DNA of 64,000 bases, from positions 8,062,083 through 8,126,082 of the forward strand of contig NZ_CP109199.1 of assembly GCF_036250065.1 (NCBI RefSeq), in the 5' to 3' direction. Shown here in pieces: positions 49,590-58,545 of this stretch. The position numbers and the translations under genes are program-made. Position 1 is the stretch's first letter, and each line of letters starts with the position of its first letter. The notes under the pieces are model-generated. The model searched no databases and was not told the DNA's origin. It worked only from the letters and a program-made list of their open reading frames with translations. This DNA is from Micromonospora sp. NBC_01699 (GTDB lineage: Bacteria; Actinomycetota; Actinomycetes; Mycobacteriales; Micromonosporaceae).

Positions 49590-51854
49590 TCAGCCGAGCT
49601 GCTGACCGGTGATCACGCTGTAGAGCACGGTGGACAGACCGCCGCCGACAACCGCCGAGGCGAGTCCGAGGCTGGCCGGCCGCCAGGCTCGACTCACCCA
49701 GCGCAGCAACAGTGCCACCACCAGGCTGCCCGTCAGCGCGGCACCGAAGCGTGGTGCGGCACCGAGGATCGAGGCCAGCGCCTGGGCCCGCTGCGAGTCA
49801 CATCCGCCGCCGGTCGGGTCGGTCACACAACCATCCGGGACGCTGTTGTCCAGGGTCACCAGCCAGACGAAGAAAACCAGCACCGGTACGGCGTACCAGG
49901 CGGCGGTATAGAGCACCGCCGCGAGATGGCTGCCGGGTTCCGCGGCGAGCAGGTCCTCTTCGATCCGCCGTGGCGGTCGACTGCTCCGGCCCGGCAGGTT
50001 GCCCGGTCCGGGCGGCGCGGTCGGGGCGTTCCGAACACTGCGACCGGTACGCCGTTGCGCCGCGACGGCGGGCGCGGTCCTGGCCCCCGTCGTCGGTGCC
50101 GCCGGAGTACGCGGCGGTCCGGTCCTGGGCGGACGGGGATAGGCCACCGCCGGAGACCGGGGCGCCGAGGTGGGCGTCTCCATCCAGCGCGGATCGTCGC
50201 CGGCCAGGCGGGTGCCGGACCAGAAGGCGTCCCGGTCCCGCCACGGCGGTGCCGCGCCCTCCCGCCGGTCCGGGTCGTCCAGCGCGGCCAGCTCGCTCCG
50301 GTCCCAGACGCCGGTGTCGGTGAACCGGTCCCACTGACCGGTGTCGGTGGAGCCATCCCACCGGCCGGTGTCCGTGGAGCCATCCCACCGGCCGGTGTCC
50401 GTGAACGAACTCAAGACCCCGGTGCCCGCCTCGTCGGGGCCCCGGCTGTCGAGGTCGAACCGGTCCCAGACGCCGGTGTCGTCGAACCGGTCCCACTGGC
50501 CGGTGTCGGCGGCTCGGTGCCGGTGACCCGGCCCGGCGGCCCGGTGCCGCTCACCGGTGTCGGTCACCCGGTTCCACTGGCCGGTCTCGGTGAACCTGTC
50601 CCGGCTGCGCCGGCCCGTCGAGGGCTCGTCCGGCGGCGCCTCCGGCGGGTCGGAGCGCGGCGCGCGTACCCGATCCTCCGGCCCTGGCACCGCGCGCAGA
50701 TCCGGCCGTCCGGCCCGGTCCGCCCGCCCTGCTCGGCTCTCCCCGGTCGGGCGTTCGGCCCGGCTCGCTCGCTCGGCCCGCGTTCGTTCGGCCCGGTCCC
50801 CACGACCTGTCCGGCCGGTGGGTTCGGTTCGGTCCGCGCGACCTGTCCGGCCGGTGGGCTCGGTCCGGTTCGCACGCTCGGGCCGTTCGGTGCGGCCCGC
50901 GCGTTCGGACCGTCCGGTCCGGTCCGCGCGTCGGGGCTCCGCCGACAGCCCACCACGAGCCGTCGGACCGGCCCGATCGGCCCGCTCGACGCCCTTGTCG
51001 GGGTCCTGGTCGAGGAGGTCGGATCGGTCCCAGACGCCGGTGTCGTCGAACCGTTGCCAGCGGGCGGCGTCCGCAGAGCGGTCAGAACCGGCCGTACGCC
51101 GCCGCCGGCCACCGCTGCTGGTGGTGGCGGCGTCGGAGCCGGTGCTCCACCGGCTCGTGCCGGTCGCTTCGCCCCGACCGTCGACGGGTGTGTCGCCCGC
51201 CCAGTCCCGACTCCGGCGATCGGAGCGCTGCCGGGTGCCCCCCGCCGGGGAACCGCCGGTACGGGTGTCGTCCGTGCCCGCCCCGCCGTCGGTCCAGGTG
51301 CCGGCGGTCGACTCTCCATCCTCGGAACGGCTGCGTCGCCGAGGGGCGTACCCGTCGCTGATTCGGCGGTCGGAGCGGCCGCCACCGGCCCGTTCGTCGG
51401 TGTCGTCCGCGTGCCGGCCCGAGCGGCCCGCCGGCCGGTCGTCCGGCTCGGCCCTGCGCCGTCCACCGCCCGACGGCTCGGTGCCCTGCCAACCGGTCGG
51501 GGCGGTCCAGTAGTCCGTCGCCGAGGTGTCCGTGCCGGAGTCGGCCGTACGCGACCCACTGCCGCCGCGCCCGGCGGTGCCGCCGACGTCGGCCCAGGGG
51601 CGATCGGGCTCTGGATCGGCCGGATACCGCGCGACGTCGTCCCGAGCCCCGGCCGCGGATTCCAACGCCCAACTCGGGGTGTACCGCTCCGGGTCACTGC
51701 GGTGCGCGCCGCGACGGCGGCTGGTGGGCTCGTAACCCTCGCCGGTGTGCGAGTAGGGGTCACCGGGGCGTGGATCGCCATCATCGACCCAGGCGTCGGC
51801 TGGTCGCCGCGCGGGGCGGGTGAGGTCACCGCGCCCCCAGTCCCGATAGTCCAC
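49590..51854 (-). CDS. repeat-rich membrane protein, unknown function
   Basis: About 754 aa if GTG at 51854 is the start (VDYRDWGRGDL); the start is uncertain because no clear ribosome binding site is seen, and the frame stays open to 51998. The first ~600 residues are Arg/Asp/Thr/Gly-rich and low complexity, with nine copies of a DTGxWDR motif and Arg/Thr/Glu-rich repeats. The last ~130 residues carry about four membrane helices (LYTAAWYAVPVLVFFVWLV, ALTGSLVVALLLRWV, LASAVVGGGLSTVLYSVI). It lies between rplI and dnaB. No known domain recognised. Confidence 0.7.
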   Translation of the reverse strand: MDYRDWGRGDLTRPARRPADAWVDDGDPRPGDPYSHTGEGYEPTSRRRGAHRSDPERYTPSWALESAAGARDDVARYPADPEPDRPWADVGGTAGRGGSGSRTADSGTDTSATDYWTAPTGWQGTEPSGGGRRRAEPDDRPAGRSGRHADDTDERAGGGRSDRRISDGYAPRRRSRSEDGESTAGTWTDGGAGTDDTRTGGSPAGGTRQRSDRRSRDWAGDTPVDGRGEATGTSRWSTGSDAATTSSGGRRRRTAGSDRSADAARWQRFDDTGVWDRSDLLDQDPDKGVERADRAGPTARGGLSAEPRRADRTGRSERAGRTERPERANRTEPTGRTGRADRTEPTGRTGRGDRAERTRAERASRAERPTGESRAGRADRAGRPDLRAVPGPEDRVRAPRSDPPEAPPDEPSTGRRSRDRFTETGQWNRVTDTGERHRAAGPGHRHRAADTGQWDRFDDTGVWDRFDLDSRGPDEAGTGVLSSFTDTGRWDGSTDTGRWDGSTDTGQWDRFTDTGVWDRSELAALDDPDRREGAAPPWRDRDAFWSGTRLAGDDPRWMETPTSAPRSPAVAYPRPPRTGPPRTPAAPTTGARTAPAVAAQRRTGRSVRNAPTAPPGPGNLPGRSSRPPRRIEEDLLAAEPGSHLAAVLYTAAWYAVPVLVFFVWLVTLDNSVPDGCVTDPTGGGCDSQRAQALASILGAAPRFGAALTGSLVVALLLRWVSRAWRPASLGLASAVVGGGLSTVLYSVITGQQLG
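50290..50605 (-). repeat. DTGxWDR-coding repeat cluster
   Basis: Eight copies of a 7-10 residue motif (D/E)TG(Q/R/V)W(D/N)(R/G) occur in tandem or near tandem, one degenerate (DTGERHR). A ninth copy lies at about 51020-51055. At DNA level a 27-base unit is repeated almost exactly near 50341-50400. Confidence 0.85.
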
Positions 51855-52026
51855 GGTCGGAGCGTGACCTTTCTGAGATCGAATGGCAATCGACCGTCCA
51901 GACGGATCTGTCGATGTCGGCATAATCCTGCCAGCTCGGACGGATCTTCTGGGTTTTTCTTTCCTCCACACCGTGGGGACGGAGTACGCCCATGTCACGA
52001 CTGGTACAGGCTACCTTCCCCAGCCG

Positions 52027-52287: not shown

Positions 52288-55020
52288 GTGTCGGTCAGCG
52301 ATGACATACGCGCGGAGGCCAGGGCGGCCGGACCACCCTCGGGACCACCGGCCCAGCGCGACGGTCAGTTCGACAAGACCCCGCCCCAGGACATCGCGGC
52401 CGAACAGTGCGTGCTCGGCGGGATGCTGCTGTCCAAGGACGCCATCGCCGACGTGGTCGAGATCCTCAAGACCGGTGACTTCTACCGGCCGGTACACGGC
52501 ACGATCTTCGACATCATCCTCGACCTGTACGGGCGGGGAGAGCCGGCCGACTCGATCACCGTGGCCGCAGCGCTCGCCGACTCCGGGGACCTGGCCCGGA
52601 TCGGTGGCGCGCCGTACCTGCACACGCTCATCGCCAGCGTGCCGACCGCCGCGAACGCCGGCTACTACGCCCGGATCGTCGGCGAGCGCGCGGTGCTGCG
52701 CCGCCTGGTCGAGGCCGGCACCCGCATCGTCCAGCTTGGCTACGGCTCGGCCGCGGGCGGCGGGCGCGACGTCGACGACGTGGTCGACCTGGCCCAGCAG
52801 GCCATCTACGACGTCACCGAGAAGCGGGTCAGCGAGGACTTCGCGGTCCTCGCCGACATGCTGCAACCCACGCTCGACGAGATCGAGGCGGTCGGTGCCT
52901 CCGGCGGGATGATGACCGGCGTACCGACCGGCTTCAGCGACCTGGACCGCCTGCTGAACGGGCTGCATCCGGGCCAGTTGATCATTGTTGCCGGTCGGCC
53001 CGGTCTAGGGAAGGCGCTGGCGCTCGACACGCCGCTGCCGACCCCCGATGGGTGGACGACGATGGAAGCCGTGCGCCAGGGCGATCAGCTGTTGGGTGCC
53101 GACGGCCGTCCAACCGTTGTCACGGCGGTTTTCGAGGTGATGCACGACCGGCCGTGCTACGAGGTCGAGTTCTCCGACGGGTCGGTCATCGTCGCGGACG
53201 CTGAGCACCTGTGGAAAACAACAACCAGGGCAAGCCGCCGAGGCGGCAGTACCCGCCGGCAGATCGGCTGGTCTGGCAATGCCCTCACCGGGTTGCGGCG
53301 CGCCCACCAGGAGCACGCGACAGCGCCGGATACGGAAGTCTCTATCCAGGAAGCGCTTGCTATGGTCGGCCCGGAGTTCAAGAGCACCCTTCAACGCGTG
53401 GTGCGCGGCCTGCCGGTCCAGTCGGTCCGATCAACTGCCGGGACGGGGCGACGAGGCCGTCCTGCTCAAACCTACTCCGCCCAGGTGTTGTATTCGGGCT
53501 TGCTGGATCGCGGCGAGGGTTGGAGCGAGACGCTGGACCGGGCGGCACAGCAGAGCGTGGTTACGACCGAGCAAATCGCTGCCACCCTGCGAACCGACAC
53601 TGCTGATCGGCGTCTCAACCACGCGGTTGAAAACTGCGCCCCGCTCGCACTTCCGGAACAAGAACTACTCGTGCCTCCGTACGTGTTGGGGGTGTGGCTG
53701 GGGGACGGTCATAGTGCTGGCGATCGTTTCACCAGTGCCGACCCCGAGATAGCGACCTACATCGAGGAAGCCGGCCTTCTCGTCCGCCAAACCGGCCCGA
53801 TGCTCTACGCGATCAGCCGGCGGTGCGAGGACTGTCACCGTACGTTCGGGTCTTTCGGGGGGATGCTGAAGTCGATCGGGGTGCTCAACAACAAGCACAT
53901 TCCCCAGAGTTACCTCCGGGCATCCGAGGCCCAGCGTCGAGCACTCCTGGCGGGGCTGCTCGACACGGACGGCACGGTCGCCCCCAGCGGGAACCTCCAG
54001 TACACGTCGACTTCTCGGCGCCTGGCTTACAACGTTCGAGAACTGGTCGTCACCCTCGGGTACCGGTGCAGCGTGACCGAAAAGAAGGTACGGGAACGCG
54101 GGCCCGAGTCGTCGACGGCGTACACGTTGAACTTCTCTACCAACGACGTCGTGTTTCGACTGCGACGGAAGCAGGAAGCGCACCGAACTCGGCGCAGAAC
54201 CGATTCAGAGGTCCGCAGCGGCTCCCGGTTCATCGTTGCCGTGCGTGCGGTTCCCAGCGTGCCGGTCCGCTGCGTCACCGTCGACAACGAGGACCACCTG
54301 TACCTCGCTGGCGAGACGATGGTTCCGACTCACAACAGCACCGCATCTATGGACTTTGCCCGAAATGCTGCGATTCGGGCTAATCAGGCGGCGGCCATCT
54401 TCTCGCTCGAAATGAGCAAGGTCGAGATCGTCATGCGGTTGCTCTCGGCCGAGGCCCGGGTCCCGCTGCATGTCCTGCGCAGTGGGCAGCTCTCCGACGA
54501 CGACTGGACCAAGCTCGCCCGGTGCATGGGCGAGATCAGCGAGGCCCCGCTCTTCGTGGACGACACGCCCAACATGAACCTGATGGAGATCCGGGCAAAG
54601 GCTCGCCGACTCAAGCAGCGGCACGATCTGAAGATGATCGTGGTCGACTATCTCCAGCTGATGAGCTCGCCAAAGAAGACGGAGAGCCGCCAGCAGGAGG
54701 TCGCCGAGCTGTCCCGAGGACTGAAGCTGCTGGCCAAGGAGGTCGAGTGCCCGGTCATCGCGGTCAGTCAGCTGAACCGTGGACCGGAGCAGCGTACGGA
54801 CAAGCGACCCCAACTGTCTGATTTGCGTGAGTCTGGGTCAATTGAGCAAGATGCTGACGTTGTCATCCTGCTGCACCGCGACGACTACTACGACAAGGAG
54901 TCCCCGCGCGCGGGCGAGGCCGACTTCATCGTCGCAAAACACAGAAACGGCCCAACAGACACCGTGACCGTCGCCGCACAACTCCACCTGTCACGGTTCG
55001 TAGACATGGCCATCGTCTAA
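52288..55020 (+). CDS. dnaB: replicative DNA helicase DnaB with intein
   Basis: Hexameric helicase that unwinds DNA at the fork. 910 aa precursor; 469 aa after splicing. GTG 52288 follows GAGGGGGAG. The N-terminal domain starts at PPQDIAAEQCVLGGMLL (residue 31). The RecA-like domain begins near TGVPTGFSDLDRLLNGLHPG. Walker A is split: GRPGLGK (236-242), then the intein (243-683), then STAS. Walker B is MIVVDYLQLM. H3/H4 read VIAVSQLNRGPEQR and SDLRESGSIEQDADVVILL. The end is AKHRNGPTDTVTV. The protein cannot bind ATP properly until the intein leaves. Confidence 0.97.
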   Translation: MSVSDDIRAEARAAGPPSGPPAQRDGQFDKTPPQDIAAEQCVLGGMLLSKDAIADVVEILKTGDFYRPVHGTIFDIILDLYGRGEPADSITVAAALADSGDLARIGGAPYLHTLIASVPTAANAGYYARIVGERAVLRRLVEAGTRIVQLGYGSAAGGGRDVDDVVDLAQQAIYDVTEKRVSEDFAVLADMLQPTLDEIEAVGASGGMMTGVPTGFSDLDRLLNGLHPGQLIIVAGRPGLGKALALDTPLPTPDGWTTMEAVRQGDQLLGADGRPTVVTAVFEVMHDRPCYEVEFSDGSVIVADAEHLWKTTTRASRRGGSTRRQIGWSGNALTGLRRAHQEHATAPDTEVSIQEALAMVGPEFKSTLQRVVRGLPVQSVRSTAGTGRRGRPAQTYSAQVLYSGLLDRGEGWSETLDRAAQQSVVTTEQIAATLRTDTADRRLNHAVENCAPLALPEQELLVPPYVLGVWLGDGHSAGDRFTSADPEIATYIEEAGLLVRQTGPMLYAISRRCEDCHRTFGSFGGMLKSIGVLNNKHIPQSYLRASEAQRRALLAGLLDTDGTVAPSGNLQYTSTSRRLAYNVRELVVTLGYRCSVTEKKVRERGPESSTAYTLNFSTNDVVFRLRRKQEAHRTRRRTDSEVRSGSRFIVAVRAVPSVPVRCVTVDNEDHLYLAGETMVPTHNSTASMDFARNAAIRANQAAAIFSLEMSKVEIVMRLLSAEARVPLHVLRSGQLSDDDWTKLARCMGEISEAPLFVDDTPNMNLMEIRAKARRLKQRHDLKMIVVDYLQLMSSPKKTESRQQEVAELSRGLKLLAKEVECPVIAVSQLNRGPEQRTDKRPQLSDLRESGSIEQDADVVILLHRDDYYDKESPRAGEADFIVAKHRNGPTDTVTVAAQLHLSRFVDMAIV
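53014..54336 (+). mobile_element. class 3 intein with LAGLIDADG endonuclease in DnaB P-loop
   Basis: 441 residues, Ala243 to Asn683, inserted between Lys and Ser of the DnaB Walker A motif. It starts with Ala (ALALDTPLPTPDGWTTM) rather than Cys or Ser. The class 3 signature is complete: Trp at intein residue 67 (AEHLWKT), Cys at 420 (VPVRCVTVDN) and Thr at 439 before the final His-Asn (VPTHN). The next host residue is Ser. Two dodecapeptide motifs, VLGVWLGDG (Asp473 of the precursor) and LAGLLDTDG (554-562), mark a homing endonuclease with acidic residues kept. A CxxC pair (CEDC) lies between them. Codon use is less GC-rich than the host gene. Confidence 0.92.
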
Positions 55021-56366: not shown

Positions 56367-56738
56367 TCAGAGCGTCTGGCCGAGCCACCAGCCGAGTGCG
56401 GCCGCGCCGAGTCCGGCGATCAGCGTCGCGGCGACGTAGAGCAGCGCCCGCAGCCGCCCGTACGTCGTCTCGCCGGCCAGCCGCACGGTCTCGTAGCTGA
56501 AGGTGGAGTACGTGGTCAGCGCGCCACAGAAGCCGGTTCCGACGAGTACGCCGACCCAGCCGGGCAGGGCGCTGCCGAGCCCGGCGAGCAGCCCGAGCAC
56601 CAGCGAGCCGGCCACGTTCACGGTCAGGGTGCCCCAGGGCAGGGTCCGGTCGAGCCGGCGGGTGGCGATCCGGTCGACCAGGAACCGGCAGGCCGCCCCG
56701 ATTGCCCCGCCGGCCAGCACGAGCAGCAGGTTCGTCAC
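56367..56738 (-). CDS. crcB: fluoride channel CrcB, copy 1
   Basis: Fluc-type fluoride exporter, 123 aa, four membrane helices. GTG 56738 overlaps the stop of the second copy (GTGA). Motifs include GGAIGAACRFLVDRI, PWGTLTVNVAGSLVLGLL, and GFCGALTTYSTFSYETVRL with the pore TTYSTF. Fluc channels are antiparallel dimers, and two genes in tandem can give a heterodimer. Confidence 0.95.
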   Translation of the reverse strand: MTNLLLVLAGGAIGAACRFLVDRIATRRLDRTLPWGTLTVNVAGSLVLGLLAGLGSALPGWVGVLVGTGFCGALTTYSTFSYETVRLAGETTYGRLRALLYVAATLIAGLGAAALGWWLGQTL

Positions 56739-57181
56739 GTCGGCCGGTCGGAGTCGAAGGCGCCGGGAACGATCCGCTCGACCAGCCGGCCGCCGAGCCA
56801 GGCGGCCGTCAGCGCGCCGGCCAGGGTGCCGAGCACGTACCCGCAGGCGAGCAGGGGGCGGTCGGTGGCGAGCAGTCCACGGGTCTCGACCGCGTACGTG
56901 GAGAAGGTGGTGTAGCCGCCGAGCAGACCGGTGCCGAGGAACGGGCGGATCAGCCGGTGCGGGGCGATCCGGCCGTTGACGAATCCCATCAGCAGGCCGA
57001 GCAGGAGACAGCCGGTCAGGTTGACGGCCAGGGTGGTCCACGGGAAATGGCCGGACGGGGTCGGCCAGAGCACGGCGACGCCGTACCGGGCCGCCGCGCC
57101 GAGGGCGCCGCCGACCGCCACCGTGGCGAGCACGTCCAGCGGCATTCGGTCACCGTCGACCGCTCCGGTCGGGTTCCTCAT
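56735..57181 (-). CDS. crcB: fluoride channel CrcB, copy 2
   Basis: 148 aa from ATG 57181, or 136 from ATG 57145 (MPLDVLATVAVGGALGAAAR). Family motifs are PWTTLAVNLTGCLLLGLLMG and GLLGGYTTFSTYAVETRGL with the TTFSTY pore. It overlaps the GT87-like gene (ATGA) and copy 1 (GTGA), so all are translationally coupled. Confidence 0.95.
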   Translation of the reverse strand: MRNPTGAVDGDRMPLDVLATVAVGGALGAAARYGVAVLWPTPSGHFPWTTLAVNLTGCLLLGLLMGFVNGRIAPHRLIRPFLGTGLLGGYTTFSTYAVETRGLLATDRPLLACGYVLGTLAGALTAAWLGGRLVERIVPGAFDSDRPT

Positions 57182-58545
57182 CGGGCGGTGGCGGCCGCCG
57201 GTGGGGTCCGGTCGGTGGCGGGGTCGGCTGCGGGTCGGCCGAGCCACAGGGCGGGCGCCCAGGTCAGGAACACGATCGGGTAGAGCAGGTAGCCGAAGCG
57301 GGTCGAGGGCATCAGCACGATCGCGGCGAGCAGTCCGTACCCGCAGATCAGGGTGGCCGATCCGGCGGTTTGCGGGGGGCGGCGGACGAGTCGTACGGCG
57401 ATCAGCAGCCCGGCCCCGACGAGCAGCGCGGCGGCGATCACCCGGCCGGCGGGCAACGCCGCCGCGATCAGGTAACCGGGGAACGGCGACTGGGCCGGGC
57501 TGGTCACCACACCGTGGCCGAGCGGGAATCGCAGCACGTTCTCCACCAGCGCCGACGAGTCGACGAGCTGGACCGGGATCAGCGCGGCGACGGGCAGGCC
57601 GATCGCGCCGGCGGCCAGTCGGGCGGCGGTCCGCCAACCCCGGGTCGCGGCGTAGCCGATCAGCACCAGGGCGACCGGCCAGGCGAAGAGCTTCAGCGCT
57701 CCGGCGAGCCCGATCGCCACCCCGGCGGCACCGAACCGGTGCTTCGCGCCGAGGGCCAGGGCGAGCAGGCAGAGGGCCAGGACCGGCAGGTCGTCTCCGC
57801 CGGTGGCCAGGGTCAGCGCGCAGACCGGCAGCACGGTGGCGAACTGCACCGCCCGTACCAGGGCATGGTCGCGGGCGTCGGCCCGGTCGGACCGGTCCGG
57901 TCGCGCGGCGGTCCGGGCCAGGGCTTTTCCGGTACGCCGCAGCGTCGTCACCGCGACGCCCAGCGCGACGGCGGTGACCAGGGCGAACCAGATCCGGGCG
58001 TCGGTCCACCAGGCGTCTGCGGCGATCGCCCTCGGCAGCCCGAACAGGGCCATGCCCGGCTGGTACGGGGTGTAGCCGGACAGTTGCTCGCCGGCCGGCA
58101 ACGCCCTGATCGCGTCCGGTCCGAGGTATGGCGTTCCGTGGTCGAGCAGGCGGATGCCGGCGTGCTCGATCACGGCCACCTCCTCCTGTGCCCGGTCGGC
58201 GTGTCCACCGGCCCGTTCGACGGACTGCCACACCATCGGTAACAGTGCGGTGGTCGCCCAGGTCACTGCGGTGAGCGTGGCGCGGGCGGCGGTGCCGGTC
58301 AGCCGGGTCACGCCCCGGCGGCGGGCGAGGAACTGGCCGGTGGCGGCGAGCACGGCCAGCAGGTAGCCGGCGGTGGCCACGGTTCCCCAGGCGCGGTGCG
58401 GCAGCAGGGTGGAGGTGGCCGCGGTGACGGCGGCGAAGACGGTCGAGGCGCCGTAGAACCACAGGTCTCCGGCGAGCCCACCGGCGGCACCGTCCATCCG
58501 GCTCCACAGCCGGTGGGCGCGGCCGCGCGGGTCCGGGGAGATCAC
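57178..58545 (-). CDS. GT87-like membrane protein
   Basis: 455 aa, about 10 to 12 membrane helices. Outer-loop features IRLLDHGTPYLGPDAIRALP and LSGYTPYQPGMALFGLPRA resemble GT-C mannosyltransferases. Starts GTG 58545, overlapping the GGDEF-EAL stop by 4 bases, and ends overlapping crcB. Co-translation with a c-di-GMP enzyme is suggestive but does not show function. Confidence 0.8.
   Translation of the reverse strand: MISPDPRGRAHRLWSRMDGAAGGLAGDLWFYGASTVFAAVTAATSTLLPHRAWGTVATAGYLLAVLAATGQFLARRRGVTRLTGTAARATLTAVTWATTALLPMVWQSVERAGGHADRAQEEVAVIEHAGIRLLDHGTPYLGPDAIRALPAGEQLSGYTPYQPGMALFGLPRAIAADAWWTDARIWFALVTAVALGVAVTTLRRTGKALARTAARPDRSDRADARDHALVRAVQFATVLPVCALTLATGGDDLPVLALCLLALALGAKHRFGAAGVAIGLAGALKLFAWPVALVLIGYAATRGWRTAARLAAGAIGLPVAALIPVQLVDSSALVENVLRFPLGHGVVTSPAQSPFPGYLIAAALPAGRVIAAALLVGAGLLIAVRLVRRPPQTAGSATLICGYGLLAAIVLMPSTRFGYLLYPIVFLTWAPALWLGRPAADPATDRTPPAAATAR

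Follow-up and report, generated by a model that had tools for sequence, protein, structure and literature searches.

A class 3 intein with a LAGLIDADG endonuclease domain in the Walker A motif of DnaB from Micromonospora sp. NBC_01699

The dnaB gene of Micromonospora sp. NBC_01699 carries an insert in its Walker A motif, which raises the questions of what kind of element this is, how it would be removed from the helicase precursor and whether its homing endonuclease may still function. The gene lies in a window of 64,000 nucleotides, a term used here for the whole stretch of DNA analysed; the genome is designated G000. We read the insert as a full-length intein of class 3 that occupies DnaB site b, in the sole dnaB found in the genome, and put the probability of this reading at roughly 95%. 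The intein belongs to an already known type, as class 3 inteins at this site are found widely among actinobacteria. The features of the locus are as follows.

52288-53013, + strand: dnaB N-extein, 242 aa, GTG start, ending in the Walker A sequence GRPGLGK
53014-54336, + strand: class 3 DnaB-b intein, 441 aa, Ala1 to Asn441
53155-53157, + strand: Cys48, counterpart of the redox-partner Cys48 in M. smegmatis DnaBi1
53197-53214, + strand: block B, DAEHLW, with Asp62, His65 and Trp67 (W of W-C-T)
53224-53628, + strand: middle region, residues 71-205, helix-rich
53686-53712, + strand: first LAGLIDADG motif, LGVWLGDGH (LGVWLGDG being residues 225-232), catalytic acid D231 at 53704-53706
53815-53835, + strand: putative site, from comparison with G002, of a 189-bp (63-codon) in-frame loss beside an AGCC repeat, with RRCEDC, an orphan half finger, after it
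53944-53973, + strand: second LAGLIDADG motif, LLAGLLDTDG (residues 311-320), catalytic acid D319 at 53968-53970
54271-54273, + strand: block F Cys420 (F:4), class 3 initiating nucleophile according to the available text of PMC6195587
54328-54336, + strand: block G, Thr439-His440-Asn441
54337-55020, + strand: dnaB C-extein, 227 aa and stop, first residue Ser+1, the Walker A serine

The insert and its closest relatives

The dnaB reading frame (52288-55020, + strand) encodes 910 amino acids and is open across all 910 codons. Residues 243-683 form an in-frame, stop-free insert of 441 amino acids, and translation reproduces exactly the boundaries 53014-54336 given in an initial annotation of this DNA. 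The placement in Walker A made there also holds, since the insert separates the lysine from the serine of the motif. The upstream junction reads GRPGLGK/ALALDTPLPTPDGW and the downstream junction VPTHN/STASMDFARN, the slash marking the boundary. Uninterrupted host sequence around the site reads GRPGLGK/STASMDF, which places the insertion in the P-loop before the Walker A serine, at the position named site b in the available text of PMC6195587.

Pfam and NCBIfam profiles match DnaB on both sides of the insert (TIGR00665 on the host protein, E 9.3e-157), the intein_Cterm profile TIGR01443 scores 18 bits on the host protein against a cut-off of 15.6, and Pfam LAGLIDADG_3 matches the insert with E 4.5e-9. 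In sequence searches of the PDB, two DnaB inteins come out nearest, 6rix from M. chimaera (E 1.2e-36) and 6bs8 from M. smegmatis (E 6.7e-36). An AlphaFold model built from 53 sequences reaches a mean pLDDT of 93 and a pTM of 0.82, and Foldseek matches it to 6riy, 6rix and 6bs8 (E 1.2e-8 to 4.8e-8). These matches to mycobacterial class 3 inteins cover 69-73 columns of the N-terminal splicing part only, with an rmsd of 0.6-1.6 Å (6bs8: 0.6 Å over 69 columns). The best full-chain match is PI-SceI (E 3e-17, TM 0.59); for the predicted model this match reflects the domain order and not the exact arrangement, because the rmsd is 13.5 over 506 columns. The profile, PDB, AlphaFold and Foldseek results together exclude a chance resemblance to inteins.

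The residues that define the splicing class are where the initial annotation had put them. The first residue is alanine and not cysteine or serine, so that position 1 offers no Cys, Ser or Thr nucleophile, and the W-C-T signature is complete: Trp67 at block B position 12, two residues past His65, Cys420 at block F position 4, where it aligns with the block F cysteine of 6rix, and Thr439 at block G position 5. Asp62 and His65 (DxxH), His440, Asn441 and Ser+1 are present as well. The cysteines of the intein lie at positions 48, 208, 271, 274, 352 and 420.

The initial annotation had likened the insert to an intein of mycobacteriophage Bethlehem. The class 3 kinship stands, but the PDB search identifies Mycolicibacterium smegmatis DnaBi1 (6bs8) and M. 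chimaera DnaB1 (6rix) as the closest characterised relatives. Both are class 3 inteins at DnaB site b and share with the window intein the host gene, Ala1, Cys48, W67, DxxH, the block F cysteine and the block G threonine; DnaBi1 also shares the P-loop site and Ser+1, as far as the available text describes it. In contrast to these two, the window intein has retained both a middle region and a LAGLIDADG domain with two motifs; DnaBi1 is described in that text as a mini-intein without endonuclease, and the 6rix chain has 145 aa. The mycobacteriophage TerL inteins (TerL1-c, Bethlehem gp10; TerL1-e, Gaia gp2) are class 3 as well but occupy a different host protein, and phage inteins are 35.0-42.7% identical to the window intein among the 40 matches listed. 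The available text of PMC5050341 places TerL1-c and -e in one clade with mycobacterial DnaB-b inteins and reports that endonuclease activity was demonstrated for the Bethlehem TerL intein.

Around dnaB, an 802-aa ORF (49590-51998, - strand) encodes a protein with a very high content of Arg, Asp and Gly, short repeats and a hydrophobic C-terminal end; it has no Pfam match, and long open frames occur there on either strand. Two adjacent ORFs at 56367-58507 (- strand) have CrcB-like C-terminal parts (Pfam CRCB, E 3.4e-25 and 2.9e-25). ARAGORN found no tRNA or tmRNA gene in the 64,000-nt window.

The endonuclease domain and a zinc-finger-like module

For comparison, 131 loci were scanned and yielded 110 inteins (none at 21 loci), of which 100 were unique and 93 resided in DnaB. 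The two LAGLIDADG motifs of the window intein keep their acidic residues, as initially proposed, with D231 and D319 each ahead of the final glycine. They align with D218 and D326 of PI-SceI (numbers counted from chain positions) in a weak match with a whole-sequence E of 4e-4. PI-SceI (the VMA1 intein) is a yeast class 1 intein and 16% identical to the window intein. Both acids are kept in 68/81 DnaB-b inteins of at least 250 aa. Endonuclease decay is common in the group, given that 13 of these 81 lack an aspartate at one or both positions; mini-inteins (<250 aa) make up 12 of the 93.

The middle region is presumably comparable in place to the DNA-recognition region of PI-SceI. Its assignment to a known DNA-binding domain was rejected, as neither Pfam nor the phages gave a match, and the PDB gave only weak matches, to alkaline phosphatase (E 0.018). 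Such a region, scored where 60 or more residues lie between positions 80 and 181, occurs in 50 of the 93 DnaB-b inteins and is found both with and without the module described below.

The intein of a sister species in the same genus (G002, locus L162) has 504 aa and is 63 codons (189 bp) longer. The two genomes share an allele, their inteins being 91% identical at the protein level. The extra stretch sits in the endonuclease domain, and there G002 carries four cysteine pairs (three CxxC, one CxxxC), of which the window intein retains only the last, RRCEDC (Cys271, Cys274), as an orphan CxxC; it therefore does not have the two or more pairs in the endonuclease insert that define zinc-finger-bearing relatives. 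An AGCC (53815-53818) stands at the break, and the same AGCC occurs at both ends of the G002 stretch. The module region holds at least four cysteines in 56/93 DnaB-b inteins and at least eight in 25/93; among the 81 longer inteins, 22 show no CxxC-type pattern (a loose pattern with some false calls), so not every member carries the module. Since the Cys-rich module is widespread in the group, the simplest reading of the difference would be a loss in the window lineage.

The module may bind zinc, as suggested by the arrangement of its cysteines, by weak matches in PHROG and Pfam and by a model of middling quality for the relative L069. L069 matches phrog_1271 ("HNH endonuclease", E 2.8e-4) and phrog_1333 (E 5.5e-5), both weakly; Pfam zinc-ribbon matches stay below their cut-offs, and together they loosely favour a zinc finger. 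The L069 model has block-mean pLDDT values of 58-88 over the module, too low to prove a finger. The L069 module had no tblastn match in phages, and a two-pair cysteine pattern in the middle part was absent from 26 other class 3 inteins, two of which are minis.

Yeast HO and WHO likewise combine an intein-type LAGLIDADG protein with Cys-x-x-Cys fingers, and the available text of a 2020 paper (PMC7282813) calls them the only known intein-zinc-finger fusions. According to the same text, HO and WHO are free-standing and lack exteins, and their finger comes after the intein-like part; in the DnaB-b relatives it is embedded in the endonuclease domain, and these inteins have a full set of splicing residues. 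Among the open-literature papers listed, no title or abstract opening describes zinc-finger-like modules in bacterial inteins.

These observations bear on the initial proposal that homing may still be active, which stands in part. Both catalytic acids and a dN/dS of 0.19 for the endonuclease domain speak for it; the case is weaker because 63 codons of the module are gone from the domain, and from the sequence present homing activity is uncertain. A tentative but substantial alternative is that this class 3 intein can still splice but has a dead or dying homing endonuclease and is on its way to a mini-intein of the mycobacterial type. It is consistent with the 63-codon loss that left an orphan CxxC and with the minis and aspartate-lacking relatives counted above. 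Between G000 and G002, with 14 relatives as reference, whole-intein changes fall 17 on the window side and 11 on the G002 side, with 10 unresolved; those in the endonuclease part number 7 and 5, with 4 unresolved, and both counts, like dN/dS, average over time before the deletion and are blind to very recent death. The first count points towards a dying endonuclease; the second shows no marked excess, and marked endonuclease decay on the window branch was rejected. The retention of D231 and D319 also argues against this alternative, as do the full-length relatives without a CxxC-type module and the purifying selection on the endonuclease part. Against G002, dN/dS is 0.23 for the whole intein and 0.22, 0.35, 0.19 and 0.16 for residues 1-88, 89-205, 206-400 and 401-441, respectively.

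Class assignment and the conservation of Cys48

Would an alignment place the insert with class 1 inteins? A tree of 76 splicing domains (140 columns, several long phage branches, 43 of the 93 DnaB-b inteins) sets the window intein inside the DnaB-b group, paired with the sister-species copy (support 100/99). This group of 43 rows (86/94, not full support) is nested among other class 3 inteins, and the class 1 representatives, seven inteins of this bacterial family and every one from DnaB site a, split off with 100/100 support. With the signature present and the nearest solved proteins being class 3, the tree agrees with the class 3 reading of the initial annotation. That the insert belongs to class 2, or to class 1 with loss of the first nucleophile, and has a merely coincidental W-C-T signature has little in its favour beyond the occurrence of Cys1 class 1-type inteins at site a of the same gene, and is very improbable in view of the full W-C-T plus DxxH, the solved class 3 relatives, among them the biochemically studied DnaBi1, and the separation in the tree. 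A dead insert in a pseudogene, for which the available text of PMC3196547 gives Arth_1007 as a precedent and for which no support was found here, is hardly credible in a frame open over 910 codons with all known catalytic residues intact, exteins under strong purifying selection (dN/dS 0.05 and 0.004 against G002) and no other DnaB C-terminal part found in G000.

A1, C48, D62, H65, W67, C420, T439, H440 and N441 are all kept in 93/93 unique DnaB-b inteins, a biased sample, as queries and patterns came from the window intein and extraction was filtered on junction and block residues. Because one scan peptide itself contained C48, this position was controlled separately: it is present in 48/48 DnaB-b inteins without the exact scan peptide and in all 30 unique DnaB-b inteins from a whole-genome search (the window's own copy excluded). 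Cys48 is thus invariant within the DnaB-b inteins examined. Among 26 other class 3 inteins (25 distinct; 13 from 23 viral-contig loci, 8 from phage and 5 from plasmid records, the latter two drawn from 714 and 37 matching records), W67, C420, T439, H65, H440 and N441 are kept in 26/26, C48 in 19/26, D62 in 17/26 and A1 in 16/26. The available text of PMC6195587 states that Cys48 of DnaBi1 forms a disulfide with the catalytic Cys118 upon oxidation and that 7 of 7 tested Cys48 mutants were splicing-deficient, and labels the residue non-conserved. Since Cys48 and Cys420 match the DnaBi1 disulfide pair, redox control of splicing is possible by analogy, and the invariance of Cys48 may have a structural reason besides redox control.

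Splicing, mobility and allele turnover

The C-terminal part of DnaB has a single match in G000 (E <= 0.001; all 12 candidates scored), so that viable replication presumably needs splicing. In the precursor, Walker A would be cut between Lys and Ser, which would preclude normal ATP binding by the helicase until the intein leaves. The available text of PMC6195587 describes the class 3 order for DnaBi1 (block F Cys, Ser+1, usual late steps), and by analogy Cys420, Ser+1 and Asn441 would follow it. Cys420 would attack the Lys-Ala1 peptide bond to give a branched thioester, the N-extein would pass to the serine of Walker A (Ser+1), and cyclisation of Asn441 would free the intein, with an acyl shift yielding mature DnaB. 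The LAGLIDADG endonuclease of the freed intein would cut intein-less dnaB at GK/S, where the intein would be copied in; without most of the zinc-finger-like module this cleavage may be weakened or altered.

Among 200 Micromonosporaceae genomes, 198 have a dnaB match at E <= 1e-60, and a search with the intein gives hits at E <= 0.001 in 97, part of them other inteins; dnaB is split near residue 242-245 in about 60 genomes among the matches listed, an approximate count read by hand. Of 73 loci from a genome-contig scan, 72 bear actinobacterial titles and the other belongs to a Hymenobacter MAG. Matches occur in 714/50,697 phage records, all below 60% identity and six covering at least 80% of the query, and in 37/72,556 plasmid records. 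Intein-less sites of the GK/STASMD type are present at 26/33 family loci (two genomes occur twice among the 33), with 41-49 of 60 bases identical around the junction.

In seven family loci (L168, L182-L187), DnaB has a Cys1 intein of 424-429 aa at site a but lacks an intein at site b, and 24 loci, including L031 and L058-L062, seemingly have inserts at both sites of one dnaB (pattern scan; some loci overlap in the same genome). The DnaB-b inteins of L088 and L124, on contigs labelled Bifidobacterium breve MAG, closely resemble Mycobacterium-labelled ones, perhaps through wrong binning.

Between G000 and G002, dS is 0.19 for the intein and 0.28 and 0.43 for the exteins. In a further species of the genus (G001), exteins that are 97.2 and 99.6% identical flank a different allele of 341 aa (57% over 333 codons), which does not group with the window intein in the tree, its position there having weak support (81/86). 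This difference probably arose through allele turnover by transfer. The same genome carries, beside its intein-bearing dnaB, a second, intein-less dnaB-like copy (L164, G001:C1:8279416-8280798), 72% identical to the window DnaB and with one in-frame TGA within the match. The G+C content of the window C-extein (0.617) lies below that of the N-extein (0.704). Co-conversion or recent import as its cause was rejected, as the C-exteins of G001 (0.645), G002 (0.631) and G161 (0.631) drop likewise from 0.70 in their N-exteins; a fourth relative, G155, was left out of the comparison owing to an additional site-a insert in its C part.

The window intein is of comparative use as an endonuclease-bearing relative of the redox-sensing mini-intein of M. 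smegmatis, and all DnaB-b inteins examined retain the redox-partner Cys48. The chances are about even that the window intein arose as a natural deletion allele of a finger-bearing intein, with its 91% identical, full-finger twin present in the sister species. Set side by side, the two alleles offer a natural comparison of a homing endonuclease with and without a zinc-finger-like module and, if this reading is true, would directly reveal the role of the finger in target recognition or activity.
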